Positions 27,767-42,979 of a stretch of 64,000 bases of DNA are shown one piece after another. Positions within the stretch are counted from its first letter, which is position 1. Each line of letters starts with the position of its first letter. The notes beneath the pieces are model-generated. The model worked only from the letters and a program-made list of their open reading frames with translations. It was not told where the DNA came from and searched no databases. This stretch comes from Streptomyces antimycoticus (lineage in GTDB: Bacteria > Actinomycetota > Actinomycetes > Streptomycetales > Streptomycetaceae), in assembly GCF_005405925.1 (NCBI RefSeq), contig NZ_BJHV01000001.1, positions 1,426,001-1,490,000 of the forward strand, in the 5' to 3' direction. A program made the translations under genes and the position numbers.

Positions 27767-28822
27767 TCATGGCGCCTCGCCGGCCCAGGCGCGGGTCAGG
27801 AGGGCGCGTACCGCGTCCCGTTCCACCGGTCGCGGATTCCAGTAGCCGTCCCGCACGATGAGGTCGGCCGCCTGCTCGATCCCCGATTCCGGCATGCCGA
27901 GGTCGCGCAGCGCCCTGGGGGCGCCGAGCCTTCCGGCGAAGTCGAAGAGGCCGCTCGCGGCGTCGTCCCACGCCAGCGCCCACGCGATGCGTGCCATGGC
28001 CTGGGGGGCCGCCGACCGGTTGTAGGCGACCACATGCGGCAGGACGACCGTGTGGGTTTCGGCGTGCGAAAGCCCGAAGGTGCCGCCCAGTACGTGGCAC
28101 ACCTTGTGGTGCAGGGCCATGCCCACCGTGCCGAGGCAGGTGCCGGCCAGCCACGCCCCGTACAACGCATCCGCCCGCGCCTCGGCGTCGTCCGGACGCC
28201 ACGCGACGACTGGAAGGGATCGCGTGAGGGAATCGAGCGCCTCGCCGGCCATCAGGAAGGCGACCGGGTCGCGGTCCTGTGCGTAGAGGGCCTCCACGGC
28301 GTGCGCCATCGCGTTGATGCCGCTGACCACCGATATCGCCGCGGGAAACGTGAGCGTCAGGTCGACGTCGTACACCACCGTCTTGACCAGCACTTCCGGC
28401 AGTCGGCGGGTGGTCTTCTTGTGGCCTTCGGTCTCTCCGAGAATCGGCGTCATCTCGGAACCCGCATAGGTCGTGGGCAGTGCCAGCTGCGGAAGACCGG
28501 TCCGTACGGCGATCGCCTTGCCGAGACCGATGGTCGACCCGCCACCGATCGCGAGCACGCAGTCCGCTCCCACGGATTCGGCGTACGCGACCGCCTTCTC
28601 GGTGACCTCGACAGGGGTGTGCGGTGCCGCTTCGGTGAACGTGCCCACCGCCGCGGCGCCGAGCAGCTCGCGGATCTCCGATGCCTGGTCCACTTGGCCA
28701 GGGGTGCACAAAACGAGCACCCGACCGCGTCCGAGGGCATCGACCTCCTCAGGGATACGGCTGCGCGTACCGCTGCCGAAAACCACCTTGGTGATCTGTC
28801 CCCGATGCACGAATGTCTTCAT
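27767..28822 (-). CDS. maleylacetate reductase (iron-type alcohol dehydrogenase fold)
   Basis: This 351-residue protein reduces maleylacetate to 3-oxoadipate with NAD(P)H. Family marks are VVFGSGTRSRIPEEV (14-28), the nucleotide loop AIGGGSTIGLGKAIA, LPTTYAGSEMTPI and the His-rich region HAVEALYA / MALHHKVCHVLGGTFGLSHAETHTVVLPHV. The last region is the maleylacetate-reductase version of the Fe-ADH metal region. It is the first gene of the leftward operon (reductase, dioxygenase, BTAD regulator, flavin reductase, LuxR). It is divergent from the CoA-transferase genes that take 3-oxoadipate further. Confidence 0.92.
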   Translation of the reverse strand: MKTFVHRGQITKVVFGSGTRSRIPEEVDALGRGRVLVLCTPGQVDQASEIRELLGAAAVGTFTEAAPHTPVEVTEKAVAYAESVGADCVLAIGGGSTIGLGKAIAVRTGLPQLALPTTYAGSEMTPILGETEGHKKTTRRLPEVLVKTVVYDVDLTLTFPAAISVVSGINAMAHAVEALYAQDRDPVAFLMAGEALDSLTRSLPVVAWRPDDAEARADALYGAWLAGTCLGTVGMALHHKVCHVLGGTFGLSHAETHTVVLPHVVAYNRSAAPQAMARIAWALAWDDAASGLFDFAGRLGAPRALRDLGMPESGIEQAADLIVRDGYWNPRPVERDAVRALLTRAWAGEAP

Positions 28823-29093
28823 CAGAATTTCCTCGGTCCCGCCGCTCCTCGATTTATGGATAAAGCCTCGGCACTGGGATCTCGCACGTCAATGGATTCG
28901 GTGAGCGATAGCGGGAAGCAGCGTGGAAATACCGTGTTCACGCGACCGGTACCGACACCATGGCCGCGGCATCCTGACCGATATCACCCATCTGCGGGAT
29001 GTCCGGGACCCGCCGCCCCGGCCGAATACTTGAGATTGCCTTTCGGTAGCAGCGTCCGATGGATCCATATTGGCCAAGGGTGGAGTAGAAAAG
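28823..29093. promoter_or_regulatory. divergent promoter region of the two catabolic operons
   Basis: This 271-bp gap separates the maleylacetate reductase start (leftward) from the CoA-transferase start (rightward) and is less GC-rich than its surroundings. An inverted repeat TTTAT-GG-ATAAA lies at 28853-28864, 31-42 bp before the reductase start. It is a candidate operator or part of the promoter. I see no other convincing operator. Confidence 0.45.
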
Positions 29094-29876
29094 ATGGATA
29101 AAGTGGTCGCCACGGCCCTGGAGGCGGTGGCGGATGTGCCCGATGGCGCGTCGTTGGCGGTGGGGGGATTCGGTTTGAGCGGTGTGCCGAACGTGTTGAT
29201 CCAGGCGCTGTTCGAGCGGCGCGTCGGCGGCCTGTCGGTCGTCTCGAACAACTGCGGGGCGATGGAGTCGGGTCTGGCCGTGCTGCTGGCGGCGGGCCGG
29301 ATCGGGCGGGTGACGGGCTCGTACATCGGGGCGAACAAGGAGTTCGCGCGGCAGTATCTGGCCGGGGAGCTGGAGGTGGAGATGATTCCGCAGGGCACCC
29401 TGGCCGAACGGCTGCGGGCCGGCGGTGCGGGAATCCCCGCCTTCTACACCCCGGCCGGGGTCGGCACTCAGGTCGCGGAGGGCGGACTGCCCTGGCGGTA
29501 TGACGGCTCGGGCGGAGTGGCGCTGGCCTCACCGGCCAAGGAGGTGCGGACCTTCGACGGGGTCGCCTATGTGCTGGAGCGCGGAATCCGTACCGACTTC
29601 GCGCTGGTACGGGCGGCGAAGGGGGACCGGCACGGCAACCTGCTCTTCAGCAAGTCCGCCCGCAACTTCAACCCGCTGGCCGCGATGGCGGGCAAGGTGA
29701 CCATCGCGGAGGTGGAGGAGCTGGTGGAGCCGGGCGCGATCGATCCCGACGCGGTGCATCTGCCGGGGATATTCGTGCAGCGGGTGGTGGCCCTCACCGC
29801 GGAGCAGGCGGCGGACAAGAAGATCGAGCGGCGCACGGTGTCCGTGCCCGCGACACGAGGGTCGGTGAGCGGCTGA
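29094..29876 (+). CDS. pcaI: 3-oxoacid (3-oxoadipate) CoA-transferase subunit A
   Basis: This 260-residue alpha subunit of a heterodimeric family I CoA-transferase has [23 protein letters not shown] near the N-terminus. [39 protein letters not shown] and [16 protein letters not shown] follow. With subunit B it moves CoA from succinyl-CoA to 3-oxoadipate. Specificity is inferred from the maleylacetate reductase and thiolase genes alongside; SCOT-type acetoacetate transferases look very similar. The ATG at 29094 is preferred. The stop overlaps the next start (TGATG). Confidence 0.88.
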
Positions 29877-30520
29877 TGGCCTGGAACCGTGAGGAGATGG
29901 CCGCCCGGGCCGCGGGTGAGCTGGCGGACGGCCAGTACGTCAATCTCGGCATCGGGCTGCCGACGCTGATCCCCAACCATCTGCCCGAGGGCGTGGAAGT
30001 GATCCTGGAGTCGGAGAACGGGATCCTGGGCACCGGCCCCTACCCCGGCGAGGAGCAGGTCGACCCCGACCTGATCAACGCGGGCAAGGAGACCGTGACG
30101 GTGCTGCCGGGCGCCTCCTTCTTCGACTCGGCGCTGTCGTTCTCGATGATCCGCGGCGGCCATATCGATGTGGCGGTGCTGGGTGCGATGCAGGTCTCCG
30201 CGCGGGGGGACCTGGCGAACTGGGCGATCCCCGGGAAGATGATCACCGGGATCGGCGGGGCGATGGACCTGGTGCACGGCGCCCGCACGGTCATCGTCGT
30301 GATGACGCACACCGCCAAGGACGGCTCGCCGAAGATCCTTACCGAGTGCGCACTGCCGCTGACCGGGCAGCGCTGCGTGAACCGGATCATCACCGACCTC
30401 GGCGTCCTCGACATCACCGACGAGGGCCTGGTGCTGATCGAGTGCGCCCCGGGCGTCGCCGTCGAGGAGATCATCGCCAAGACCGGCGCCGAACTGACCG
30501 TCACGGAGGGCCTGAAGTGA
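29876..30520 (+). CDS. pcaJ: 3-oxoacid (3-oxoadipate) CoA-transferase subunit B
   Basis: This 214-residue beta subunit carries the catalytic glutamate in [15 protein letters not shown], which forms the glutamyl-CoA intermediate. Further blocks are [49 protein letters not shown] and [20 protein letters not shown]. It is translationally coupled on both sides, overlapping the A subunit by one base and the thiolase start by four. All catalytic features are intact. Confidence 0.9.
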
Positions 30521-31757
30521 GGAACGTATACATCGTCGACGCCGTGCGCACGCCGACCGGGCGCTACAACGGCGGCCTGGCCTCGGTACGCCCCGACGAT
30601 CTGGCGGCCCACGCCATCCGTGAACTCCTCCTCCGCACACCTCAGTTGGACCCCGCGCGCATCGCGGACGTGTACCTCGGCAACGCCAACGGCGCCGGCG
30701 AGGAGAACCGCAACGTCGGCCGCATGGCCGCGCTGCTGGCCGGTCTGCCCACCTCCGTACCGGGCGTGACGGTCAACCGGCTGTGTGCCTCCGGTCTGGA
30801 GGCGGTCATTCAGGCCGCCCGTGCCATCGCCGTCGGCGACGCGTCCATCGCGGTCGCCGGTGGCGTGGAGTCGATGACCCGGGCTCCGTATGTGCTGCCC
30901 AAGAACGACCGGCCGTTCCCGGCCGGCCACGCCGAACTGCACTCGACCACCCTGGGCTGGCGCATGGTCAATCCGGAGATGCCCCCGCAGTGGACCATCC
31001 CGCTCGGGGAGTCGGCCGAACTCATCGCCGACAAGCACACGATCAGCCGCGCGCGGCAGGACGAGTTCGCCCTGGGCAGCCACCGCAAGGCCGCCCGAGC
31101 CCAGGCCCAGGGGCTGTTCGACGCCGAACTCACCCCCGTGCCGATCCGGCAGCGCAAGGGCGACCCGCGGCTGTTCGCGGCCGACGAGTGTGTCCGCCCG
31201 GATGCCTCCCTGGAGGCGATGGCCAAGCTGAAGCCGTCCTTCCGCGGCGGGAGCGAAGCGAGAGGGGGGTCCCCCGGCCGGAGGCTGGGGGAGGCACGGT
31301 GACCGCGGGCAACGCCTCACCGCTCAACGACGGGGCGGCCGCCCTGCTCCTGGCCGACGAGGAGGGCCTGAAGGCCACCGGCCGCGAACCGCTGGCCCGG
31401 GTCTCGGCCACCGGAGTGTCCGCGATCGACCCGGACTACTTCGGCCTCGCCCCCGTCGAAGCCGTCCACCGGGCCCTGGCCAAGGCCGACCGGACCTTCG
31501 CCGATCTCGATGTGCTGGAGCTGAACGAGGCCTTCGCCGCACAGGTCCTCGGATGCGTGGCCGAATGGCCCGAGTTCGACCCGGCGATCCTCAACCCACA
31601 GGGCGGCGCCATCGCCCTCGGGCACCCACTCGGCGCCTCCGGTGCCCGCCTCGCGGGAACTGTCGCCCATCAACTGGCCCGCCGCGGCTCCGGCACCGGC
31701 ATAGCGACCCTGTGCATCGGCGTGGGCCAGGGCCTCGCCCTGGTCCTCGAACGCTGA
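30517..31757 (+). pseudogene. pcaF: 3-oxoadipyl-CoA thiolase interrupted by a palindromic repeat
   Basis: The gene starts at the overlapping GTG and encodes a normal thiolase N-terminal half with the acyl-enzyme cysteine in VNRLCASGLEAV and GGVESMTRAPYV. After LKPSFR at about 31245 a GC-rich insertion of roughly 40 bp shifts the frame, and translation stops at 31302. The second half is otherwise intact in another frame: GTVTAGNASPLNDGAAALLLAD, LELNEAFAAQVL, GGAIALGHPLGASGARL and the catalytic cysteine in TLCIGVGQGLALVLER. As given, no functional thiolase is made, which would block the last step to succinyl-CoA and acetyl-CoA. Confidence 0.8.
31246..31286. repeat. GC palindromic repeat inserted in the thiolase gene
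   Basis: It contains GGGGGG/TCCCCC and CCCCC/GGGGG self-complementary runs. On the minus strand it reads CCTCCCCCAGCCTCCGGCCG then GGGGG and CCCCC, nearly the same as the copy at 3134-3165. It splits the thiolase between FR and GTVTAGN. The exact insertion borders are uncertain by a few bases. Confidence 0.65.
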
Positions 31758-34360: not shown

Positions 34361-34834
34361 TCAGCCGAACTGGCCGACCTTGTAATCGCCGGCCGGCTGC
34401 TGGTTGATGATGTTGATGCGGTTGTAGCAGTTGATGATGGCGATGAGAGTGATCAGCGCGGCGAGCTGGTCCTCATCGAAGTGCTTGGCCGCGTTCGCCC
34501 AGGCCTCGTCCGTGACCCCACCGGCCGCGTCCGCGACCCGGGTGCCCTGCTCGGCCAGCTCCAGTGCGGCACGCTCGGCCTCGGTGAAGAGCGTCGCCTC
34601 CCGCCAGGCGGCGACCAGGTTGAGCCGTATCGAGGTCTCGCCGGCGTTGGCCGCTTCCTTGGTGTGCATGTCGGTGCAGAAGCCACAGCCGTTGATCTGG
34701 CTGGCGCGGATCTCCACCAGGCTCTGAATGGTGTGCGGCAGCGTCGAGTCCGCCAGCACCTTGCTGACCGAGGCGAAGCCCTTCATCGCCTTGGCCGCGA
34801 GGCCATTGCCGTAGTAATGGATACGGGGATCCAT
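34361..34834 (-). CDS. carboxymuconolactone decarboxylase / AhpD-like protein
   Basis: This 157-residue helical protein has the AhpD-like redox motif CGFC in IRASQINGCGFCTDMHTKEA, followed by LNLVAAWREATLFTEAERAALELAE and the C-terminal LIAIINCYNRINI. Such proteins act as alkylhydroperoxidase-like thiol reductants or decarboxylases. It lies 23 bp downstream of the SigJ-like sigma gene, a partnership characteristic of ECF41 sigma factors. It also has its own TGTCACA-N16-GGTC promoter inside the sigma gene's 3' end. A perfect AGGAGG precedes the ATG. Confidence 0.92.
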   Translation of the reverse strand: MDPRIHYYGNGLAAKAMKGFASVSKVLADSTLPHTIQSLVEIRASQINGCGFCTDMHTKEAANAGETSIRLNLVAAWREATLFTEAERAALELAEQGTRVADAAGGVTDEAWANAAKHFDEDQLAALITLIAIINCYNRINIINQQPAGDYKVGQFG

Positions 34835-34857: not shown

Positions 34858-35865
34858 TTACGCACTCATGACCGGGCAGCCCGGCGAGGTGTGACACCCA
34901 TGGCCGTGTGAGGTGGGTCTCCGCGGCCGTGTCATCGCCGTACCGTCCGGGCGACCGGAGGCGGCCGCGCAGCGGGAGCGCGAAGCGAGGAATGCGGCGA
35001 TCTTGCTCGGGCTGAACACCCACATCACCTTGTGGATGCCGTCCTTCGAGGCGGCCACCGTCAGGAACGCCGCGGGCTCGCCATCCCGGTAACACACCAC
35101 GCCCGTAAGGCCGTTGGCCTCGACCAACCTGGGCTCCGCGTCCCGCCAGAGCCGCGGATAGGTCGCCAGTTTGGCGATACGCGCAGGGCCCAGCACCGGG
35201 ATACGCGCGCAGGCCCGCAGACCGTTGCCGTCGGACAGACTGGTGGCATCGGGGGCGAGAAGGGCCTCCAGCGATGCCACGTCCCCGGTTCGAGCCGCGG
35301 AGACGAAGGCGTTCAGCAGGCGCCGGTGCTCCGCCGTGTCCACGCTCTCCCGCTGCTCGTCCGACAGATGCTTGCGGGCACGGCTGACGATCTTCCGCAC
35401 GTAGACAGGGCTGATGTGCAGCATGTCGGCGATCTCGGGGTAGCCGTAGTCGAACGCCTCACGCAGCACATACGCGGCGCGCTCGACGGGGCTCAGCTTC
35501 TCCAGCACCAGCAGCAGGGCCAGTTCCAGTGCCTCCGCGCGCTGCGCGCCCACCTCCGGATCCGCGCTGGTGTCGATGGGCTCGGGCAGCCACGGCCCGA
35601 TGTAGGTCTCCCGGCGTACACGCGCCGATTGGGCCACGTTGATGGCCAACCGGGTCGTGGTGCTCGAGAGGAAGGCCACCGGGCTCAGCACCGCGGAGCG
35701 GTCCGTCTTCTGCCAGCGCAGCCACACCTCCTGGACCACGTCCTCGGCCTCGACCACGCTGCCGAGCACGCGGTAGGCGATGCCGAACAGCCGCCCCCGG
35801 TGCCGCACGAAGACAGAGACGGCCTCTTCAAGGTCCCCTGCCCAGGGACGCGGTTCGAGATCCAT
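34858..35865 (-). CDS. SigJ/ECF41-like sigma factor with NTF2-like C-terminal domain (copy 1)
   Basis: This 335-residue protein has sigma-2 (RHRGRLFGIAYRVLGSVVEAEDVVQEVWLRW, 22-52) and sigma-4 (AAYVLREAFDYGYPEIADMLHISPVYVRKIVSRARKHL). It carries the WLPEP linker motif (about 91) typical of ECF41. A SnoaL/NTF2-like tail, which in this group regulates sigma activity instead of an anti-sigma factor, follows. Its tail motifs are degenerate: DGNGL for the usual DGGGK, and SPSKI for NPDKL. The last 45 residues are an Arg/Pro-rich extension that overlaps the promoter of the downstream CMD gene. I see no TGTCACA promoter upstream of this gene itself. Confidence 0.88.
   Translation of the reverse strand: MDLEPRPWAGDLEEAVSVFVRHRGRLFGIAYRVLGSVVEAEDVVQEVWLRWQKTDRSAVLSPVAFLSSTTTRLAINVAQSARVRRETYIGPWLPEPIDTSADPEVGAQRAEALELALLLVLEKLSPVERAAYVLREAFDYGYPEIADMLHISPVYVRKIVSRARKHLSDEQRESVDTAEHRRLLNAFVSAARTGDVASLEALLAPDATSLSDGNGLRACARIPVLGPARIAKLATYPRLWRDAEPRLVEANGLTGVVCYRDGEPAAFLTVAASKDGIHKVMWVFSPSKIAAFLASRSRCAAASGRPDGTAMTRPRRPTSHGHGCHTSPGCPVMSA
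34870..34896 (-). promoter_or_regulatory. ECF41-type promoter TGTCACA-N16-GGTC upstream of the CMD gene
   Basis: On the minus strand TGTCACA (34896-34890) is followed by exactly 16 bases and GGTC (34873-34870). The CMD start codon is 36 bases downstream. The element lies within the 3' end of the sigma gene. It is one of five identical -35/-10 pairs between 34.8 and 41.2 kb. Confidence 0.75.
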
Positions 35866-36061
35866 GATCCTGCGGTCATACCTCTGAGTAGTAAGCCGTG
35901 TGCGTTCCTACCTGGCCACACTGGATCGGGACGGTCCTGAATCGCATCGCATAAACGAGTGATTCGAGCCGGTTGCCGCTTCGCGCACCCCGCCATCACC
36001 CAGCGCGGCAGGCCGTCGCTTTGCGTACCGCCCGCCCCGTACAGCCGGCCGATGTGGCCCG

Positions 36062-36559
36062 CTACGAGGCCAGCGTGATGGTGGTCGCCGTTCCCTGCCG
36101 GGCCATCTTCGCGTAGGGGCTCAGCGCACCGGCCTTCTGCAGGAGCGGGGCGGCGACGGCGGGATCGATGCCCGGCCACATGACGGAGAGGTCGACGCGC
36201 AATACGTAGCCACCGTCTTCCGGGTCCCGCCCAAAGGCCACGGACGCCGCCACGGAGATCGCGGCGGGGTCGAGCGCGGCCTGTCGTGCCACCAGACTCA
36301 GCGCCCCGTGAAAACATGCGGCGAGGCCGGCGGCGAACAACTGCTCGGGATTCGTCCCCTGACCGTCTCCTCCCAGCTCCGCGGGCATGCGCAGAGGGAG
36401 ATCCAGGACTCCGTCGGCCGACCGGGCTCTCCCCGAGGCCCGCCCGTGGCGCGCGATCCCACCGCTCACCGTCACGGTCGTCGTGTAGATCGGGGCGAAG
36501 GACTCTCCGTCGAAGTCATGGTCGGTGGACAGCCGGGGCAACCGGATCTGCTCGGTCAT
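36062..36559 (-). CDS. OsmC/Ohr-like protein missing the second redox cysteine
   Basis: This 165-residue OsmC-fold protein has IYTTTVTVSGGIARHGRASGRARS at the N-terminus, GTNPEQLFAAGLAACFHGALSL with the first cysteine, and a C-terminal ALSPYAKMARQGTATTITL. In Ohr/OsmC peroxidases the last region reads CPY; here it is SPY, so the canonical two-cysteine peroxidase site is incomplete. The protein may use another partner or have lost peroxidase activity. Expression is probably from the TGTCACA-type promoter 52 bp upstream, back to back with that of the flavoprotein gene. Confidence 0.85.
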   Translation of the reverse strand: MTEQIRLPRLSTDHDFDGESFAPIYTTTVTVSGGIARHGRASGRARSADGVLDLPLRMPAELGGDGQGTNPEQLFAAGLAACFHGALSLVARQAALDPAAISVAASVAFGRDPEDGGYVLRVDLSVMWPGIDPAVAAPLLQKAGALSPYAKMARQGTATTITLAS

Positions 36560-36610
36560 TGCGTCACTCCGTCGACGTTGCGGCATACGGCCGGGCGCGA
36601 ACACCGAGTT

Positions 36611-36637
36611 GACCGGCGAGCCACGCGTGTTGTGACA
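36611..36637 (-). promoter_or_regulatory. ECF41-type promoter TGTCACA-N16-GGTC upstream of osmC-like gene
   Basis: On the minus strand TGTCACA occupies 36637-36631 and GGTC 36614-36611, with a 16-base spacer. The gene's start codon is at 36559. The opposite-facing copy for the flavoprotein begins 48 bp away. Confidence 0.78.
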
Positions 36638-36684
36638 GTCCCTGGTCAATCACCACCCACCACGGGACCGGCGGGAACGAAAGG

Positions 36685-36711
36685 TGTCACATATCCTGGG
36701 ACGGTCTGGTC
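36685..36711 (+). promoter_or_regulatory. ECF41-type promoter TGTCACA-N16-GGTC upstream of the flavoprotein gene
   Basis: TGTCACA at 36685-36691 is followed by 16 bases and GGTC at 36708-36711. The ATG at 36749 with its GGAG ribosome binding site is 37 bases downstream, consistent with a short leader. Confidence 0.78.
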
Positions 36712-36748
36712 GTAGTGAGTGGCAACCTCTCGACGATCGGAGCAGACC

Positions 36749-38479
36749 ATGGCTATCACCGAACGACGTCTTTCCACCATGGTGCTGGTGATCGGCACCG
36801 GAGGGGCCGGGCTGCGGGCGGCGATCGAACTGGCCGAGGCCGGTGTCGACGTCCTCGCGGTCGGCAAGCGCCCCAAGGAGGACGCCCATACCGCCCTCGC
36901 CGCCGGAGGGATCAACGCCGCCCTGGGCACCATGGATCCCGAGGACAGCTGGCAGCAGCACGCCGCCGACACGCTCAAAGAGAGCTATCTGCTGGCCGAT
37001 CCCCGCACGGTCCAGATCGTCACCCAGGGCGCCGCCCGGGGAATCGACGACCTGGAACGCTACGGCGTGGCCTTCGCCAGGGAAGAGGACGGGCGGATCT
37101 CCCAGCGCTTCTTCGGCGCGCACAAATTCCGGCGCACCGCCTTCGCCGGTGACTACACCGGCCTGGAGATCCAGCGCACCCTCATCAGACGCGCGGAGCA
37201 GCTCGACATCCCCGTGCTCGACGGCGTGTACATCACCCGGCTCCTGGTCCATGACGGGGCCGTTTTCGGCGCGTACGGCTTCGACCTCACGCATGGAACG
37301 CGCTATCTGATCCACGCCGACGCCGTCATTCTCGCGGCGGGTGGCCATACCCGTATCTGGCGCCGCACCTCCTCACGGCGCGACGAGAACACGGGCGACT
37401 CCTTCCGCCTGGCCGTGGAGGCCGGAGCCCGGCTGCGCGACCCCGAGCTGGTGCAGTTCCATCCCTCCGGGATCATCGAGCCGGAGAACGCGGCCGGCAC
37501 CCTCGTCAGCGAGGCCGCACGGGGTGAGGGCGGCACGCTGCGCAATGCGCTCGGGGAACGGTTCATGACCCGCTACGACCCGGCGCGTATGGAGCTGTCC
37601 ACCCGCGATCGCGTGGCCCTGGCCTCCTACACGGAGATCAAGGAAGGGCGCGGGACTCCCAACGGCGGAGTGTGGCTCGACGTCTCCCATCTGCCACGGC
37701 ACACGATCATGACGAGGCTCCCCCGCGTCTATCAGACGCTGCTGGACCTCCAGATGCTGGACATCACCCGCGATCCGATCGAGATCGCGCCCACGGCGCA
37801 CTACTCGATGGGTGGGGTGTGGGTGCGTCCCGAGGACCACAGCACCGACGTCCGCGGTCTGTACGCCATCGGTGAGGCGTCGAGCGGGCTGCACGGCGCC
37901 AACCGCCTCGGCGGGAACAGCCTCATCGAGCTGCTGGTCTTCGGCCGCATCACGGGCCAGGCGGCCGCCGCCTACTCGGCGTCCCTGACCGCCCAGCCAC
38001 GGTCCGCCTCGGCCGTCGCGGCGGCCCGCGCGGAGATCGACGATCTTCTCGCGGCCGACGGCCGGGAGAATGTCCGCGCCCTGCAGCGCGCCATCCGCAA
38101 CACCATGACCGAGCATGCGGGAGTCGTACGCGACGAGGAAGGGCTGCGCGCCGGGCTGGTGGAGCTCGCGCTGATCGAGAAGAGGATGCAGGACGTCGGC
38201 GTGCACCCGGACATCGCCGGCTTCCAGGACCTCGCGCACGCCTTCGATCTCAAGTCCGCCGCCCTGTCGGCCCGGGCCACCCTCGAAGCGGCGCTGGAGC
38301 GGCGCGAGACCCGCGGCTGCCACAACCGCAGCGACTACCCCGACCTCGATCCCGCTCTGCGGGTCAACCTCGTGTGGTCCCCCACGACCGGTATCACCCA
38401 CGAGAGCATCCCGGCCGCACCGGACGAGATCTCCTCGCTGATGGAGGAGGTCTCGACCGAGGGAAAGCTCGCCGAATGA
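36749..38479 (+). CDS. fumarate reductase / succinate dehydrogenase-type flavoprotein without partner subunits
   Basis: This 576-residue protein is of the SdhA/FrdA/NadB family. It has the FAD loop VLVIGTGGAGLRAAIELAEAGVDVL (11-35), AGGINAALG, the active-site HPSGI and LVSEAARGEGG, the catalytic-arginine region RDRVALASYTEI, and the SMGGVWV and GLHGANRLGGNSLIELLVFGR blocks. An SdhA-type C-terminal helical domain follows. No iron-sulfur or membrane subunit gene lies nearby, so it is probably a soluble L-aspartate- or fumarate-type oxidoreductase, or works with a remote partner. It has a TGTCACA-N16-GGTC promoter. A GTG at 36719 is possible, but the ATG has GGAG at the right distance. Confidence 0.88.
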   Translation: MAITERRLSTMVLVIGTGGAGLRAAIELAEAGVDVLAVGKRPKEDAHTALAAGGINAALGTMDPEDSWQQHAADTLKESYLLADPRTVQIVTQGAARGIDDLERYGVAFAREEDGRISQRFFGAHKFRRTAFAGDYTGLEIQRTLIRRAEQLDIPVLDGVYITRLLVHDGAVFGAYGFDLTHGTRYLIHADAVILAAGGHTRIWRRTSSRRDENTGDSFRLAVEAGARLRDPELVQFHPSGIIEPENAAGTLVSEAARGEGGTLRNALGERFMTRYDPARMELSTRDRVALASYTEIKEGRGTPNGGVWLDVSHLPRHTIMTRLPRVYQTLLDLQMLDITRDPIEIAPTAHYSMGGVWVRPEDHSTDVRGLYAIGEASSGLHGANRLGGNSLIELLVFGRITGQAAAAYSASLTAQPRSASAVAAARAEIDDLLAADGRENVRALQRAIRNTMTEHAGVVRDEEGLRAGLVELALIEKRMQDVGVHPDIAGFQDLAHAFDLKSAALSARATLEAALERRETRGCHNRSDYPDLDPALRVNLVWSPTTGITHESIPAAPDEISSLMEEVSTEGKLAE

Positions 38480-38609
38480 CCTCTTACAACACTGCGAATA
38501 CCACTGCGAACAACGCTGCGAAACGCAGACCGGGGGCGCCGCTTCGGCGTCCGCGAGGAGCTCATCGCAGGAGCACCCCGCGCCATGAAATCCGAGAGAG
38601 GAATCCGTT

Positions 38610-39356
38610 ATGAAGATCGTAGTGATCGGTGGAACGGGGCTCATCGGCTCGAAGCTGGTCGGCAAGCTCAACGCACAGGGGCACGAGGCGGTCGCGGCGG
38701 CCCCCAACACCGGGGTCAACACGCTGACCGGCGAGGGTCTGGCCGAGGTCCTGGAGGGCGCGTCGGTCGTGGTCGACGTGTCCAACTCCCCCTCGTTCGA
38801 GGACGAGCCCGTCATGGACTTCTTCCGCACCTCCACCACCAACCTCCTGGCGGCGGAGGCCGAGGCCGGTGTGGCGCACCATGTGGTGCTGTCCGTGGTC
38901 GGCACCGACCGGCTCCAGGGCAGTGGCTACTTCCGGGCCAAGCAGGTGCAGGAGGACCTGATCAAGGCGTCCGGGATCCCGTACTCCATCGTCCACGCCA
39001 CCCAGTTCTTCGAGTTCATGAGCAGGCTGACGGATGCGGCGACCGAGGGCGACACCGTTCATCTGGCCCACGTCAAGATCCGGCCCATCTACTCCGACGA
39101 CTTGGCCACGGCCGTGGACCGCGCCGCGCTCGGTACCCCGACCAACGACGTGGTGGAGGTCGCGGGCCCCGATGAGTTCGAGCTCGACCAGCTCATCCGC
39201 GACATGCTCGCCGCCAAGAACGACCCCCGCCAGGTCGTCGCGGACCCGGGCGCGAAGTACTTCGATGTCGAGCTGCAGGAAACCTCGCTGCTGCCGGGTC
39301 CAGACGCGGAGATCACCGAGACCAAGTTCAACGATTGGCTGGTGCAGCAGCGCTAG
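38610..39356 (+). CDS. NmrA-like NAD(P)-binding oxidoreductase/epimerase
   Basis: This 248-residue atypical SDR has the extended Rossmann loop IVVIGGTGLIGSKLV (3-17), an HHVVLSVVGTDRLQGSGYFRAKQVQEDLI core and a C-terminal VAGPDEFELDQLIRDMLAA block. Such oxidoreductases/epimerases are the third classical partner class of ECF41 sigma factors. It may be cotranscribed with the flavoprotein (130-bp gap) since no TGTCACA site lies in the gap. The degraded gene at 40844 is a paralogue of its C-terminal part. The ATG at 38610 has GAGAGGA upstream. Confidence 0.88.
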   Translation: MKIVVIGGTGLIGSKLVGKLNAQGHEAVAAAPNTGVNTLTGEGLAEVLEGASVVVDVSNSPSFEDEPVMDFFRTSTTNLLAAEAEAGVAHHVVLSVVGTDRLQGSGYFRAKQVQEDLIKASGIPYSIVHATQFFEFMSRLTDAATEGDTVHLAHVKIRPIYSDDLATAVDRAALGTPTNDVVEVAGPDEFELDQLIRDMLAAKNDPRQVVADPGAKYFDVELQETSLLPGPDAEITETKFNDWLVQQR

Positions 39357-39373
39357 CCACCGGGCGGCCGCAC

Positions 39374-39419
39374 GGCGCCCGTCGGCGGAAGGGACCGGCC
39401 GTCCCCCGCCACGGGCGCC
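39374..39419 (+). terminator. terminator after the NmrA-like gene
   Basis: A long stem (GGCGCCCGT then GGCGG, complemented at 39406-39419 with one bulged base) encloses a second hairpin GGGAC/GTCCC. Confidence 0.7.
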
Positions 39420-39473
39420 TTCGCCTGCCCGGCGGAAGAGTGGCACAAAGGTGCCGCGCTACCGGTCCCCAGG

Positions 39474-39500
39474 TGTCACAAGTCGGAGTGCCATCTGGTC
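39474..39500 (+). promoter_or_regulatory. ECF41-type promoter TGTCACA-N16-GGTC upstream of the second sigma gene
   Basis: TGTCACA at 39474-39480 and GGTC at 39497-39500 have a 16-base spacer. It would drive the 107-residue unknown at 39600 and the sigma gene at 39960, giving autoregulation. The leader to 39600 is about 100 bases, with no further gene recognised in it. Confidence 0.78.
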
Positions 39501-39599
39501 ACGCAGGTAGAACAGCGAATCGTCTCACCCGTACCCGTACCTCGACGGCAGGCCGCGCCACCGGCGCGATCGCCCGAGTCGGAATGGAGATGACACAGC

Positions 39600-39923
39600 A
39601 TGCGGCACCATACGGACTCTGATTGCGGCGGGCGTGTTGCTGCGGAGGTCGAGCGTCTTCCCTGCGGCTCCGACCTCGGACTTCATGGCAAGTGGCTGGT
39701 GGGCCTGCAGTTCCACACCGCCGACTTCCAGCGGTTTTGGCTGTACTACGTGGTGGACGGGGCCTGCGATGCGTCTCACGCGGTGTGCCGGGCCCTGCGG
39801 TGTGCCGACCGTGACCCGGACCGCGTGGCCCGCAGTGGGGTCCAGGCCGAAGCCGATCAGATCCAGGTCCAGCAGATCCTTCGGGACGCTCTCGGGTCCT
39901 TCAGCCTGACCCGTTCCTTCTGA
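39600..39923 (+). CDS. hypothetical small protein upstream of sigma factor copy 2
   Basis: This is a 107-residue protein I do not recognise. It contains HGKWLVGLQFHTADFQRFWLYYVVDGACDASHAVCRALRCADRDP and a helical C-terminus (VQAEADQIQVQQILRDALGS), and has five cysteines. Codon use is coding-like and it ends 36 bp before the sigma gene, so it is probably the first gene of that operon. The start has no strong Shine-Dalgarno. Confidence 0.5.
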   Translation: MRHHTDSDCGGRVAAEVERLPCGSDLGLHGKWLVGLQFHTADFQRFWLYYVVDGACDASHAVCRALRCADRDPDRVARSGVQAEADQIQVQQILRDALGSFSLTRSF

Positions 39924-39959
39924 CCGTTGGGCCTTCTGACCCGTTAGGGAGGTTGCCGT

Positions 39960-40853
39960 ATGGAGCCCGCTGACGCGGTGCCGATCGCGGAGCTGCTCGA
40001 CGAGCGCCGGTATCTGCTGGACGTCGCCTACTGGATGCTGGGCGGCCTCCGTGAGGCGGAGAAGGTCGTCGATGAGACCTATCGGCGGTGGTACGGGCTG
40101 TCCGACGCGGAGCGCCGGCAGATCACCGCGGCCCGGTCCTGGCTCGCGAAGACCGCGGGCGGGATCTGTCTGAGCCGGCTCACCCACCCCGACCGGGGTG
40201 CGACCGGCCGGACGGAGGATCACCGCACGGAGACCGGAGACGCCGAGGGGGCACCGGCGAGGCTGGTGGCGGAGGTCAGCCGGGTTCTGCTGAACGCACT
40301 GGACTCTCTGCCACCGCCCGAGCGGGCGGTGTTCGTGCTCCATGACGCCTTCGGCATGGCCCCCGATACGGTCGCCGACATCGTGGGGCGCACCGAGCCG
40401 GAGTGCGCCGAACTCGCCGACCGGGCCCGCCACTGCCTCCGGATGCAGCGCCCACACCCCACGACGCCGGAAGAGCACGATGCCCTCGTCCGCGCCGTCC
40501 GCCGGGCCTGTGCGAGCGAGGACGCCGAGCTGCTGGCGTCGCTGCTGTGTCCGGACGCCACGGCGTTCTTCGACGGCGGTGGCAAGGTCCGGACGCTGAT
40601 CAGGCCCGCACACGGCAGCCGACGGGTCGCCCACAGCCTGCTGACCCTCCTGGCCCACCGCCCGCGCACCACGCTGACCACCCACTCCGTCAACGGGCGC
40701 ACCGGCCTCGTCGCCCGCTACGACCGCCAGGTCGCCGCCGTCATCAGCCTCGATGTCACCGACCACCGCGTCGCACAGGTCTGGGTCGTCCTCAACCCCG
40801 AGAAACTGCGCTCCTGGAACCGGCCCCCCGCCCCCGGTTTCGATCACCTGTGA
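39960..40853 (+). CDS. SigJ/ECF41-like sigma factor with NTF2-like C-terminal domain (copy 2)
   Basis: This protein has 297 residues. The sigma-2 region (RRYLLDVAYWMLGGLREAEKVVDETYRRWYG) and sigma-4 region (ERAVFVLHDAFGMAPDTVADIVGRTEPECAELADRARHCL) are diverged. The tail keeps the ECF41 signatures that copy 1 has lost: DGGGK in FFDGGGKVRTLIRPAHG and NPEKL near the end. Copy 2 lacks the WLPEP linker. GGGAGG precedes the ATG. A TGTCACA promoter 460 bp upstream suggests positive autoregulation. Its 3' end overlaps the remnant NmrA gene on the other strand by 10 bp. Confidence 0.85.
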   Translation: MEPADAVPIAELLDERRYLLDVAYWMLGGLREAEKVVDETYRRWYGLSDAERRQITAARSWLAKTAGGICLSRLTHPDRGATGRTEDHRTETGDAEGAPARLVAEVSRVLLNALDSLPPPERAVFVLHDAFGMAPDTVADIVGRTEPECAELADRARHCLRMQRPHPTTPEEHDALVRAVRRACASEDAELLASLLCPDATAFFDGGGKVRTLIRPAHGSRRVAHSLLTLLAHRPRTTLTTHSVNGRTGLVARYDRQVAAVISLDVTDHRVAQVWVVLNPEKLRSWNRPPAPGFDHL

Positions 40854-41165
40854 GCGCCGGCGTGCCCGTCCAGCCAGTCGCCGTAGCGAGTGGGCGCGAT
40901 ATGAGCGTCGGCGCCGGGGAGGAGATCACCGGGCTTGAGACCGGCGCCGAAGTAGGGGCTGCGGGAGTCGATGAACACCCGGCGGTGCTCCCCGGCGTCG
41001 GTGAGGACGGCACGTACGAACGCGTCGAGCGGGATCTGGGCGGGGCCGGCGATCTCATGGACGCCGAGGAGAGGGCGGGAGCAGGCGGTGTGAGCGACCA
41101 GCGTCGCGACGTCGGCGCAGGACACCGGCTGGATCGACCGGGTAGTGCGCCCGTCTGTGACAGGT
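40844..41165 (-). pseudogene. C-terminal remnant of an NmrA-like oxidoreductase
   Basis: The leftward frame encodes about 105 residues: IQPVSCADVATLVAHTAC, GVHEIAGPAQIPLDAFVRAVLTDAG, and GLKPGDLLPGADAHIAPTRYGDWLDGH. This aligns by eye with the last third of the NmrA-like protein at 38610, including VEVAGPDEFELDQLIRDML and the final FNDWL. The Rossmann domain is absent, so it is a truncated gene. It sits directly beside sigma factor copy 2, the usual place for an ECF41 partner gene. Confidence 0.7.
41136..41162 (-). promoter_or_regulatory. TGTCACA-N16-GGTC match at the truncated NmrA gene
   Basis: On the minus strand TGTCACA is at 41162-41156 and GGTC at 41139-41136, with a 16-base spacer. 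It falls at the 5' edge of the NmrA remnant and partly overlaps its frame. It may be a relic promoter fused to the fragment, or a chance match. Confidence 0.5.
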
Positions 41166-41269
41166 GCCGCTGACGGCAGGGCGGTCCGCTGACGGCTCGC
41201 GGGCGGCGGGGGCAGAAGGACGGCTCACCCGCACTCGTCCACGGGCGCCAAAAAAAGTTCCGCCGGCGA

Positions 41270-41348: not shown

Positions 41349-41768
41349 ATGGCCAAGTACCTGCTGCTGAAGCACTACCGCAGTGCCCCGGCTCCGGTGA
41401 ACAACGTGCCGATGGACCAGTGGACGCCCGAGGAGATCTCGGCGCACGTGCAGTACATGAACGACTTCGCGGCCCGGCTGGAGAAGACCGGCGAGTTCGT
41501 CGACGGTCAGGCGCTCGCCCCTGAGGGGTCGTGGGTGCGGTACGACGGTGAGGGGCGGCCGCCGGTCACCGACGGTCCGTTCGCCGAGACCAAGGACCTC
41601 ATCGCGGGCTGGATGGTGATCGACGTCGACAGCCACGAGCGCGCCGTCGAGCTGGCCGGTGAGCTGTCGGCCGCACCGGGGAAGGACGGGAAGCCGATCC
41701 ACGAGTGGCTGGAGGTGCGTCCGTTCCTGGCCGCCAAGCCCAGCACCACGGAGTGCACTTTCAAGTGA
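41349..41768 (+). CDS. YCII/DGPF-family protein
   Basis: This 139-residue ferredoxin-like-fold protein starts MAKYLLLKHYRSAPAP. It has the WTPEEISAHVQYMNDFAARLEKTGEFVDGQAL block and the family signature VTDGPFAETKDLIAGWMVIDVDSHERAVELAGELSAAPG. DGPF proteins are the near-invariant partners of ECF42 sigma factors; their biochemical role is unknown. The stop codon overlaps a possible GTG start of the sigma gene. AAGGAG lies upstream of the ATG. Confidence 0.93.
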   Translation: MAKYLLLKHYRSAPAPVNNVPMDQWTPEEISAHVQYMNDFAARLEKTGEFVDGQALAPEGSWVRYDGEGRPPVTDGPFAETKDLIAGWMVIDVDSHERAVELAGELSAAPGKDGKPIHEWLEVRPFLAAKPSTTECTFK

Positions 41769-41773
41769 CACAG

Positions 41774-42979
41774 ATGAACGAGGCCCTGATCAGGAGCCTC
41801 ACGCCGGGCGTGCTCGGAGTCCTCGTCCGCCGCGGAGCCGATTTCGCGGCGGCCGAGGACGCCGTGCAGGAGGCGCTCATCGAGGCGGTCCGCGTGTGGC
41901 CGGCCGATCCTTCCCCAAGCTCTTCGAGCAGGGGAGGCCCCATGAGGGACCCCAAGGGCTGGCTGGTCACCGTGGCCTGGCGCAAGTTCCTCGACGCCAC
42001 CCGCTCGGATGCCGCCCGCCGCCTGCGTGAGGACCGTGTCGACCAGGAGCCGGCGCCCGGGCCCGCGCCCGCGGTGGACGACACGCTCCAGCTCTACTTC
42101 CTGTGCGCCCACCCGTCGCTGACGCCGTCGTCCGCGGTCGCGCTCACCCTGCGCGCCGTGGGCGGGCTGACCACCCGCCAGATCGCCGAGGCCTACCTGG
42201 TGCCCGAGGCGACCATGGCGCAGCGCATCAGCCGGGCCAAGCGCACCGTCTCCGATGTGCGATTCGACCAGCCCGGCGACGTCGCCACCGTGCTGCGCGT
42301 CCTCTACCTGGTCTTCAACGAGGGCTACTCCGGCGACGTCGACCTCTCCTCCGAGGCCATCCGGCTCACCCGGCAGCTCGCGGCCCAGATCGACCACCCC
42401 GAGGTGGCGGGGTTGCTCGCCCTCATGCTGCTCCACCACGCCCGGCGCGCCACCCGGACCGCGCCGGACGGCAGTCTGGTGCCGCTCGCCGAGCAGGACC
42501 GCGGCCGGTGGGACACCGCGTCGATCGCCGAGGGCGTGGTGATCCTGCAGGCGGCCCTCGCCCGCGACCGGCTGGGCGAGTTCCAGGCCCAGGCCGCCAT
42601 CGCGGCACTCCACGCCGACGCGCCCACCGTCGAGGAGACCGACTGGGTGCAGATCCTGGAGTGGTACGACGAGCTCGTGCGCCTGACCGACAGCCCGGTC
42701 GTCCGGCTCAACCGCGCGGTGGCCGTCGGCGAGGCCGACGGCCCGCGGGCCGGCCTGGCGGCGCTCGCGGAGCTGGACGACGCGTCCCCGACCTCTTCGG
42801 GCAAGGGACACCCCATGCCCCGTCGTACCGCGGTGGCGGCGTACCTCCACGAACGCGACGGCGACCTGGCGACGGCGGCACGGCTGTACGCCGAGGCGGC
42901 CCACCAGGCACCCAACCTCGCCGAGCGCGACTATCTGACCCGCCAGGCCGCCCGGCTCAACACCCGTCGGCGCGGCTGA
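41774..42979 (+). CDS. ECF42-type RNA polymerase sigma factor with long C-terminal helical domain
   Basis: This 401-residue protein has sigma-2 (GVLGVLVRRGADFAAAEDAVQEALIEAVRVWP), sigma-4 (SSAVALTLRAVGGLTTRQIAEAYLVPEATMAQRISRAKRTV) and the ECF42 tail of TPR-like helices (FNEGYSGDVDLSSEAIRLTRQLA to LYAEAAHQAPNLAERDYLTRQAARL). It uniquely carries two 11-residue in-frame inserts, SPSSSSRGGPM after WPAD-P and SPTSSGKGHPM before PRRTAVAAYL, each encoded by a related GC palindrome. The inserts lie between conserved blocks, in the sigma-2/4 region and the tail. ATG at 41774 or the overlapping GTG at 41765 may be the start. Confidence 0.9.
   Translation: MNEALIRSLTPGVLGVLVRRGADFAAAEDAVQEALIEAVRVWPADPSPSSSSRGGPMRDPKGWLVTVAWRKFLDATRSDAARRLREDRVDQEPAPGPAPAVDDTLQLYFLCAHPSLTPSSAVALTLRAVGGLTTRQIAEAYLVPEATMAQRISRAKRTVSDVRFDQPGDVATVLRVLYLVFNEGYSGDVDLSSEAIRLTRQLAAQIDHPEVAGLLALMLLHHARRATRTAPDGSLVPLAEQDRGRWDTASIAEGVVILQAALARDRLGEFQAQAAIAALHADAPTVEETDWVQILEWYDELVRLTDSPVVRLNRAVAVGEADGPRAGLAALAELDDASPTSSGKGHPMPRRTAVAAYLHERDGDLATAARLYAEAAHQAPNLAERDYLTRQAARLNTRRRG
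41911..41944. repeat. in-frame palindromic repeat in the ECF42 gene (first)
   Basis: This begins TTCCCCAAGCTCTTCGAGCA and ends GGGGAGGCCCCATG. It adds eleven codons between WPADP and RDPKGW, which are contiguous in family members. Hairpin arms are the CCCC and GGGG runs with an inner AGCTC...GAGC-like loop. Confidence 0.65.
42785..42816. repeat. in-frame palindromic repeat in the ECF42 gene (second)
   Basis: This begins TCCCCGACCTCTTCGGGCAA and ends GGGACACCCCATG. It matches the first insert at most positions, in the same orientation and the same reading frame, giving SPTSSGKGHPM. Confidence 0.65.

Follow-up and report, generated by a model that had tools for sequence, protein, structure and literature searches.

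In the stretch of DNA considered here, viz. positions 1,426,001 to 1,490,000 of contig NZ_BJHV01000001.1 of Streptomyces antimycoticus (64 kb, referred to below as the window), five identical copies of the sequence TGTCACA-N16-GGTC are present within 6.3 kb, and it is quite likely, judging from their sequence and surroundings, that these sites are the promoters of a single regulon read by the ECF41-like sigma factor encoded among them (sigma 1). The GGTC class to which these sites belong is ECF41-like in sigma architecture, -35 element, linker and partner genes, yet it differs from that group in its -10 element, among other features. The best reading of the window set is that it is a reduced, small member of a family of regulon islands. 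The GGTC clade has a promoter letter of its own, and in Streptomyces it has expanded into islands that hold as many as 19 promoters and differ in gene order.

The GGTC box in the window and in the genome

The heptamer TGTCACA occurs five times in the window (both strands), and in 5/5 cases it is followed by 16 bases and GGTC, with a pyrimidine directly before GGTC at all five sites. The coordinates and strands given for these sites in an earlier reading, which was made from the letters alone (the sequence-only reading), are all correct. The number of TGTCACA copies by itself is not striking, as five or more copies were seen in 35 of 100 shuffles. The sites and the genes of the cluster are as follows:

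34361-34834, minus strand: CMD/AhpD-core protein, 157 residues, with a CxxC motif (CGFC); PF02627, 71 bits
34858-35865, minus strand: sigma 1, ECF41-like sigma factor of the GGTC clade (RLAINVAQSARVRRETYIGPWLPEP), assigned from family searches, alignments and a tree
34870-34896, minus strand: predicted promoter 1, TGTCACA-N16-GGTC, 35 bases upstream of the CMD start codon
36062-36559, minus strand: Ohr/OsmC-family organic hydroperoxide reductase, 165 residues; TIGR03561 match and Ohr relatives in the PDB
36611-36637, minus strand: predicted promoter 2, TGTCACA-N16-GGTC, upstream of Ohr, 51 bases to its ATG
36685-36711, plus strand: predicted promoter 3, TGTCACA-N16-GGTC, upstream of the flavoprotein and divergent from promoter 2
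36749-38479, plus strand: SdhA/fumarate-reductase-like FAD flavoprotein, 576 residues; PF00890 and PF02910; frame open from 36719
38610-39356, plus strand: NmrA/SDR-like protein, 248 residues, downstream of the flavoprotein; PF13460 and PF05368
39441-39467, plus strand: degenerate promoter copy, TGGCACA-N16-GGTC, one mismatch
39474-39500, plus strand: predicted promoter 4, TGTCACA-N16-GGTC, upstream of the small open reading frame and the pseudo-sigma
39600-39923, plus strand: small open reading frame, 107 residues; no family match
39960-40853, plus strand: pseudo-sigma (sigma copy 2), with a SnoaL/NTF2 domain carrying DGGGK and NPEKL
40844-41170, minus strand: NmrA remnant, alignable with intact NmrA proteins over residues ~141-244 only
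41136-41162, minus strand: predicted promoter 5, TGTCACA-N16-GGTC, overlapping the edge of the NmrA remnant

Promoter 1 shares sequence with the 3' end of the sigma 1 reading frame. The fifth site had been placed at a truncated NmrA gene, which agrees with its overlap with the remnant, and promoter 5 probably drives no working gene.

When the whole genome (11.17 Mb) was scanned for TGTCACA-N16-SGTC, a count which took in the GGTC and CGTC forms and which the sequence-only reading had proposed, 12 sites were found against 2 for a reversed-pattern control. Five of these carry GGTC, and 5/5 lie inside the 6.3 kb of the window cluster; the seven with CGTC, which is the canonical ECF41 form, all lie elsewhere (0/7 in the cluster). 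Based on the reversed-pattern rate (85 matches in 150 genomes), the chance expectation is ~0.0004 sites per 6.3 kb. The same reading had stated that a motif frequent inside genes with no link to either sigma factor would speak against a regulon, and no such abundance was observed. However, its description of GGTC as a slight variant of the ECF41 -10 element did not hold, as GGTC instead marks a promoter class that stands apart and has a sigma clade to itself. Upstream placement before genes typical of ECF41 units was seen for 5/7 CGTC sites, and from their translations these genes read as two CMD-like genes, one sigma factor and two quinone-reductase/alcohol-dehydrogenase-like genes; the remaining two look like chance matches. 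Outside this count, a TGTCACA-N16-TGTC site was met in this genome, adjoining another ECF41-like sigma.

Conservation of the box at flavoprotein loci

The box was examined in 80 loci, which are the best 80 of at least 574 relatives of the flavoprotein (83-95% identity). Among the 412 TGTCACA copies in these loci that had sufficient sequence around them, a spacer of 16 bases is followed by GGTC in 282 cases, TGTC in 45, AGTC in 5 and CGTC in 3, with none for the reversed control, while GGTC occurs only 0-7 times at each other spacer from 8 to 25. The GGTC sites are distributed by taxon, with 265 in 53 Streptomyces loci, 17 in five further loci (Actinacidiphila, Nocardiopsis, two Catenulispora and Micromonospora) and 0 in 22 Microbacteriaceae loci. 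A second peak at spacer 11 (TGTC 30, CGTC 17) was rejected as a separate class, because 44 of these 47 sites also have GGTC or TGTC at spacer 16; such sites often read YGTC-C-GGTC.

Placement relative to genes was assessed in 85 regions, viz. the flavoprotein loci, seven island stretches and the window, after dropping three loci (L080, L074 and L096; L numbers denote loci and G numbers genomes) as repeats of G020, G131 and G132. Although only 20% of the sequence in these regions is intergenic, and other TGTCACA copies are intergenic in 48/98 cases, the boxes are intergenic almost without exception (GGTC 337/342, TGTC 58/59, AGTC 7/7, CGTC 3/3). The base preceding GGTC is C in 0.85 and T in 0.15 of cases; a pyrimidine is found at this position in 164/166 island sites versus 23/34 isolated GGTC sites of other genomes, the latter being a hand-picked part of a longer site list. 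At the flavoprotein itself, TGTCACA-N16-NGTC is present in 47/54 Streptomyces and similar loci (36/39 where the locus also encodes a GGTC-type sigma or a pseudo-sigma and 11/15 where it does not) and in 0/22 Microbacteriaceae loci, in none of which such a sigma was seen. The presence and absence of the motif at the flavoprotein, its conservation at orthologues and its rarity in the genome all support the earlier proposal of a co-regulated SigJ/ECF41-like set that is larger than a sigma factor with one partner.

Regulon islands in related genomes

In the loci, where genes were called with a simple codon-usage finder, 368/401 GGTC/TGTC sites have a called start codon within 350 bases, at a median distance of 63.5 bases. 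The gene families whose members have a motif of their own include the flavoprotein (56/85, where 22 of the 85 are from Microbacteriaceae), NmrA (45/68), cupin (20/27), CMD (18/26), pseudo-sigma (18/30), NDH-2-like (16/21), ferredoxin (16/17), ferredoxin reductase (15/16), Ohr (13/22), methyltransferase (13/18), ordinary sigma (13/73), WhiB-like (10/11), cytochrome b (8/14), AceE (3/12) and YceI (1/16); the names NDH-2 and ferredoxin reductase are read from Pyr_redox_2 proteins. A conserved island protein of 83 residues (fam16; L042, L203-L206, L207-L211 and others) also has its own promoter in 14/15 cases and has no Pfam match; neither has another conserved island protein, of ~190 residues (fam10).

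Eight Streptomyces islands, 14-89 kb in length, contain 8-19 GGTC, 0-10 TGTC and 0 CGTC sites. In these islands, an own promoter is found for the flavoprotein in 11/11 cases, cytochrome b in 6/6, ferredoxin reductase in 5/5, ferredoxin in 5/6, NmrA in 18/23 and the pseudo-sigma in 7/11, and the gene order differs between islands. The regulon core (cupin, sigma, Ohr, ferredoxin, flavoprotein and NmrA, with 4 GGTC and 2 TGTC sites) is also present in Streptomyces sp. NBC_00841, on a linear plasmid of 1.5 Mb that was typed as mobilizable. The SCO7095-7154 region of S. coelicolor may be another of these islands.

In 150 genomes of the same genus, the 24 with a pseudo-sigma (identity of at least 50% among the matches listed; three are partial matches) have a mean of 12.0 GGTC sites (3-25), as compared with a mean of 1.64 (median 1, largest 11) in the 126 without; the reversed control has a mean of 0.57, and the mean for CGTC is 4.1 with and 3.1 without a pseudo-sigma. 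At this threshold, GGTC units lacking a pseudo-sigma are seen in G105 (7 sites in one island) and in G019 and G149 (3 clustered sites each). In the smallest GGTC units, an ordinary sigma forms the centre, and CMD and NmrA are preceded by GGTC promoters. The idea that a pseudo-sigma is a requirement for the GGTC class was rejected because of the units in G019 and G149, where the ordinary sigma appears to be sufficient. Units of different size thus provide a natural series along which regulon growth can be traced, from one neighbouring target (L283, L299) through 3 sites (G019) and 5 (the window) to 19 (G111). Two separate GGTC islands are present in each of two genomes (G068 C1, at 7.95 and 11.36 Mb; G141 C2, at 0.23 and 2.96 Mb). 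In G075, which has 7 sites, four matches at C6:518811-518957 lie 30-60 bases apart and look like a tandem repeat rather than promoters, and due to these spaced repeats the 7 sites were not accepted as an island.

Sigma 1 and the GGTC-linked sigma clade

Sigma regions 2 and 4 are both present in sigma 1 (PF04542, 40.9 bits; PF08281, 48.9 bits). It scores 320.3 bits over residues 18-291 against the SigX4 model TIGR02957, which is 3 below the cut-off of 323.25, and 254.7 bits against the SigJ model PRK09636 (cut-off 271), and its best solved relative is the SigJ structure 5xe7 (E 7.1e-38, residues 16-234). On the basis of these three matches the C-terminal SnoaL-like extension is judged to be present, and no Pfam SnoaL match was found in sigma 1. 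The YVGPWLPEP linker is present as YIGPWLPEP, and this motif is kept in 21/21 rows of the sigma 1 type (sigB) and 48/49 sigA rows of the alignment. Sigma rows shorter than 260 residues had been dropped before counting (144 to 114). In place of the DGGG and NPDKL motifs of the extension, sigma 1 has SDGNG and SPSKI, and acidic NP[DE]K is found in 2/21 sigB, 18/57 sigA and 71/83 other ECF41-like rows. In the row counts for both the linker and the acidic motif some genomes are represented twice (G049/L072, G111/L082), and the count of the acidic motif also has about five CGTC loci in duplicate. As GGTC rather than the CGTC of ECF41 is found at 5/5 window sites, we refer to the sigma 1 group as an ECF41-like sister clade.

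Region 2.4 reads like RISIDVLRSARVRRE in canonical ECF41 sigmas and RLAINxAQSARVRRE in the island sigmas, i.e. N..Q replaces D..R. Of the 11 ECF41-like sigma matches in the genome of the window, sigma 1 alone has this N..Q signature. Three D types adjoin CGTC and one LNRLT type adjoins TGTC; N..Q is absent from the others (RQALN, HALTQ, three D types further off and the pseudo-sigma). To relate these residues to the first -10 base, 163 distinct sigmas were collected, 46 without a motif were dropped, and the 117 with TGTCACA-N16-NGTC at most 1.8 kb away were kept. Among these, N..Q sigmas are linked to G in 61 cases, T in 4 and C in 0, whereas D sigmas are linked to C in 24 cases and to G in one, the exception being a divergent copy in the G087 island. 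For N-without-Q sigmas the counts are T 13, G 5 and C 2, and four of the five with G are island or island-neighbour sigmas, the other being that of L299. In 42 sigmas of a less selected family search, D goes with C in 17/17 and N..Q with G in 3/3. In a tree of 77 of the 117 sigmas (40 were left out), a single clade (SH-aLRT 98) unites all G-linked rows, those of L283, L299 and L303 from other families among them, and it also contains four T-linked rows. In L283 and L299, NmrA is the neighbour with GGTC; in L303 it is a hydrolase and a sigma.

A preference for C-14 G-13, immediately before the -10 element, is described for many ECF holoenzymes, and these bases could be contacted by the helix at the C-terminal end of sigma region 2 (PMC6372665). 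The base changed in the GGTC class would be that C, and the differing region-2.4 residues would map to that helix.

A third class of ECF41-like sigmas, with RQALNRLR/RLALNRLR-like region 2.4, adjoins TGTCACA-N16-TGTC in 13 loci (L224, L244, L245, L247, L248, L251, L254, L265, L270, L271, L280, L294 and L298) and CGTC in other loci, which may point to a third promoter letter.

The pseudo-sigma

The sequence-only reading had described two SigJ/ECF41-type sigma genes in the cluster. This description applies to sigma 1, whereas the second copy (39960-40853) is degenerate: it has a Pfam match to region 4 only, and both the region 2.4 helix and the YVGPWLPEP linker expected of an active sigma are gone. 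In 24 aligned members there are 36 invariant columns, of which 11 lie in residues 15-62, 0 in residues 63-182 (where 16 further columns are nearly invariant) and 25 in residues 183-287. Among the best 120 of 1015 homologues, the linker motif is present in 0/120, DGGGK in 116/120 and NPDKL or NPEKL in 116/120; those with an organism name listed are from Streptomyces. Based on these sequence features, sigma copy 2 is very probably not an active sigma, and sigma activity is very likely missing throughout its family of at least 120 proteins, most of which carry a sigma-factor annotation.

A structural model of the pseudo-sigma (mean pLDDT 81.5, pTM 0.54, residues 79-96 below 50) consists of helical sigma-like parts and a mixed helix/strand domain. 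Its top fold matches are SigJ 5xe7 and SigG1 7qh5 (TM 0.38-0.40 of the query, rmsd >14), followed by NTF2-like proteins; with such rmsd values, the domains are either arranged differently or placed with uncertainty.

Most likely, the pseudo-sigma acts as a regulator and does not itself read promoters. It keeps the plug motifs without the linker, whereas sigma 1-type proteins keep the linker and have mostly lost the acidic plug residue. We tentatively suggest from this that the ECF41 intramolecular contact, viz. that between NPDKL in the SnoaL domain and the YVGPWLPEP linker, may have been split between two proteins, in which case the pseudo-sigma, itself produced from a GGTC promoter, might be a trans-acting, ligand-gated feedback regulator of the island regulon, i.e. 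a sigma turned anti-sigma.

Protein products of the cluster

The CMD protein scores 54.7 bits against TIGR00778, above the cut-off of 27.8, and the Ohr protein 114.1 bits against TIGR03561, above the cut-off of 88.85. The window Ohr has SPYA in place of CPY[AT], which 21/22 family members have. For the flavoprotein, ATG 36749 is more likely to be the start than GTG 36719, which is only 7 bases behind the -10 element of promoter 3; several orthologues start at the equivalent of ATG 36749 (MAITEQRLSTMV or MA[AVT]TE...). In all 25 NCBIfam families listed of 53, the flavoprotein is below the cut-off (best 501.1 bits versus 718), so that it is not assigned to succinate dehydrogenase, fumarate reductase or L-aspartate oxidase, and no SdhB-like gene was found among the annotated cluster genes. 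The sequence-only reading had listed CMD, OsmC, flavoprotein and small open reading frame; it had not mentioned the full NmrA gene at 38610-39356, which is probably co-transcribed with the flavoprotein. The small open reading frame has one relative (L064, 81 residues) among the proteins clustered from the loci.

Proposed mechanism and alternative explanations

If the five promoters are read by sigma 1, then the first -10 base would have changed from C to G in its clade (TGTCACA-N15-Y-GGTC), and this change would keep the regulon apart from the CGTC-type ECF41 units of the same genome, which provides a concrete hypothesis of how two sets of sigma paralogues are kept apart within one genome. Sigma 1, when freed by a ligand or a partner, would direct polymerase to the GGTC promoters, where transcription is expected to start, and would turn on Ohr, CMD, the flavoprotein with NmrA, and the small open reading frame with the pseudo-sigma; read-through from Ohr at promoter 2 may feed back on sigma 1. 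Ohr and the CMD protein (with its CxxC) would remove organic peroxides, and the flavoprotein, joined in the larger islands by ferredoxin, a reductase, an NDH-2-like enzyme and cytochrome b, would replace damaged steps. In the islands, which harbour this sigma type in many Streptomyces, up to 19 GGTC promoters would serve genes for ferredoxin, ferredoxin reductase, NDH-2-like, cytochrome b, cupin, OsmC and WhiB-like proteins; genes for a second pyruvate dehydrogenase and YceI are also present there, seldom with their own promoter. Judging from gene content, the role of the regulon is likely to be survival of organic hydroperoxide or redox damage, by detoxification together with replacement enzymes for electron transfer.

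A number of observations weigh against parts of this interpretation. The residue/base match corresponds to one phylogenetic transition, with too few independent pairs for a test; due to this, a statistical claim for the match of D-to-N with C-to-G was rejected, and the match should be regarded as a hypothesis rather than a proven code. In the family search, GGTC was near L261, L283 and L303 (N..Q) and L299 (N..D) only, two N..Q sigmas (L242, L264) have no nearby motif, and in L263 and L301 GGTC occurs at spacer 17 beside sigmas of another type. The island loci were selected by flavoprotein or GGTC pattern, which entails a selection effect, and the three intergenic CGTC sites in the 85 regions indicate that CGTC is rare there, not absent. 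Within the eight islands, few own promoters are found for AceE (1/7), YceI (2/7) and Ohr (1/6), as well as for ordinary sigma (4/26) and LuxR-LAL-like genes (0/14), so that these genes either depend on transcription from further upstream or are not part of the regulon. Gene content is the one source of the proposed stress role, and in regard to peroxide removal, the CPY cysteine is the second cysteine of the two-cysteine Ohr enzyme, so that the window Ohr, with serine at this position, would be unusual or inactive as an enzyme of this kind.

Of the other explanations, it is unlikely that canonical CGTC-type ECF41 sigmas also drive these promoters by cross-talk, such that no separate regulon exists. 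The -35 element TGTCACA is identical in the CGTC and GGTC classes, and the genome has ten other ECF41-like sigma matches (one of which is the pseudo-sigma); however, GGTC and CGTC sites are strictly split within this genome, the eight large islands have 0 CGTC, and D-type sigmas adjoin C in 24/25 cases. That the pseudo-sigma is itself an active sigma reading some or all of the five promoters is very improbable. While it has a GGTC promoter of its own and a Pfam region-4 match, an island relative has a weak region-2 match (26.2 bits), and GGTC sites are more numerous where it is present (12.0 vs 1.64 in 24 vs 126 genomes), the window protein lacks Pfam region 2, the linker is absent from its homologues (0/120), residues 63-182 have no invariant column among 24 pseudo-sigmas (though 16 are nearly invariant), and some GGTC units, at the threshold applied, lack it (G019, G149, G105). 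It is even harder to credit that the box is the binding site of another regulator, e.g. an island LuxR/LAL or WhiB-like protein, and not a sigma promoter. LuxR-LAL-like genes, so named from their translations, are indeed common in the islands (14 copies in 6/8), but the box is asymmetric with a spacer fixed at 16 bases, lies a median of 63.5 bases before start codons and resembles the ECF41 promoters of Wecke 2012 (PMC3426412), and the smallest units are built around an ordinary sigma together with CMD and NmrA.

Comparison with known systems

Three classes of ECF41 partners (COE) carrying the promoter have been described, viz. CMD, FAD/NAD oxidoreductase and NmrA epimerase (PMC3426412). As the CMD, FAD_binding_2 and NmrA proteins fall in these classes, the window cluster holds all three and Ohr in addition; OsmC and GGTC do not occur in the text of that paper, according to which Bacillus subtilis lacks an ECF41 sigma. 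The system shares with ECF41, as described there, the -35 TGTCACA, the 16-base spacer, the YxGPWLPEP linker, the SigJ-like architecture and the three partner classes, and differs in its -10 Y-GGTC in place of CGTC, the degenerate DGGG/NPDKL of sigma 1 and the adjoining pseudo-sigma. Unlike ECF41 units, the proposed window regulon is not limited to a single target. SigJ of Mycobacterium tuberculosis (5xe7) is the best solved relative of sigma 1 and also heads the fold matches of the pseudo-sigma model; at the position of region 2.4 that is occupied by N in the GGTC clade, it carries D. The SigG1-RsfG system (ECF56) of Streptomyces tsukubaensis likewise combines a SnoaL-bearing sigma with a second protein as regulator, and it responds to redox/metal stress with at least four targets (PMC7730460). 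RsfG is described there as a cognate antagonist, and the passages compared do not liken it to a pseudo-sigma. In S. coelicolor iModulons, SigJ is reported to seem to regulate genes clustered at one locus and potentially to regulate SCO7104, and the parts compared do not describe a GGTC promoter class (PMC11538686). No description of this class was found in literature searches, which covered open-access papers.

Neighbouring genes

At 27767-31757, translations read as a maleylacetate-reductase-like gene and two 3-oxoacid CoA-transferase-like genes, and a thiolase-like frame within this region, likewise named from its translation, appears to be split near 31300. Directly beside the cluster, at 41349-42979, a YCII-domain gene is followed by a DUF6596-bearing ECF sigma, a layout which we take to be that of ECF42.

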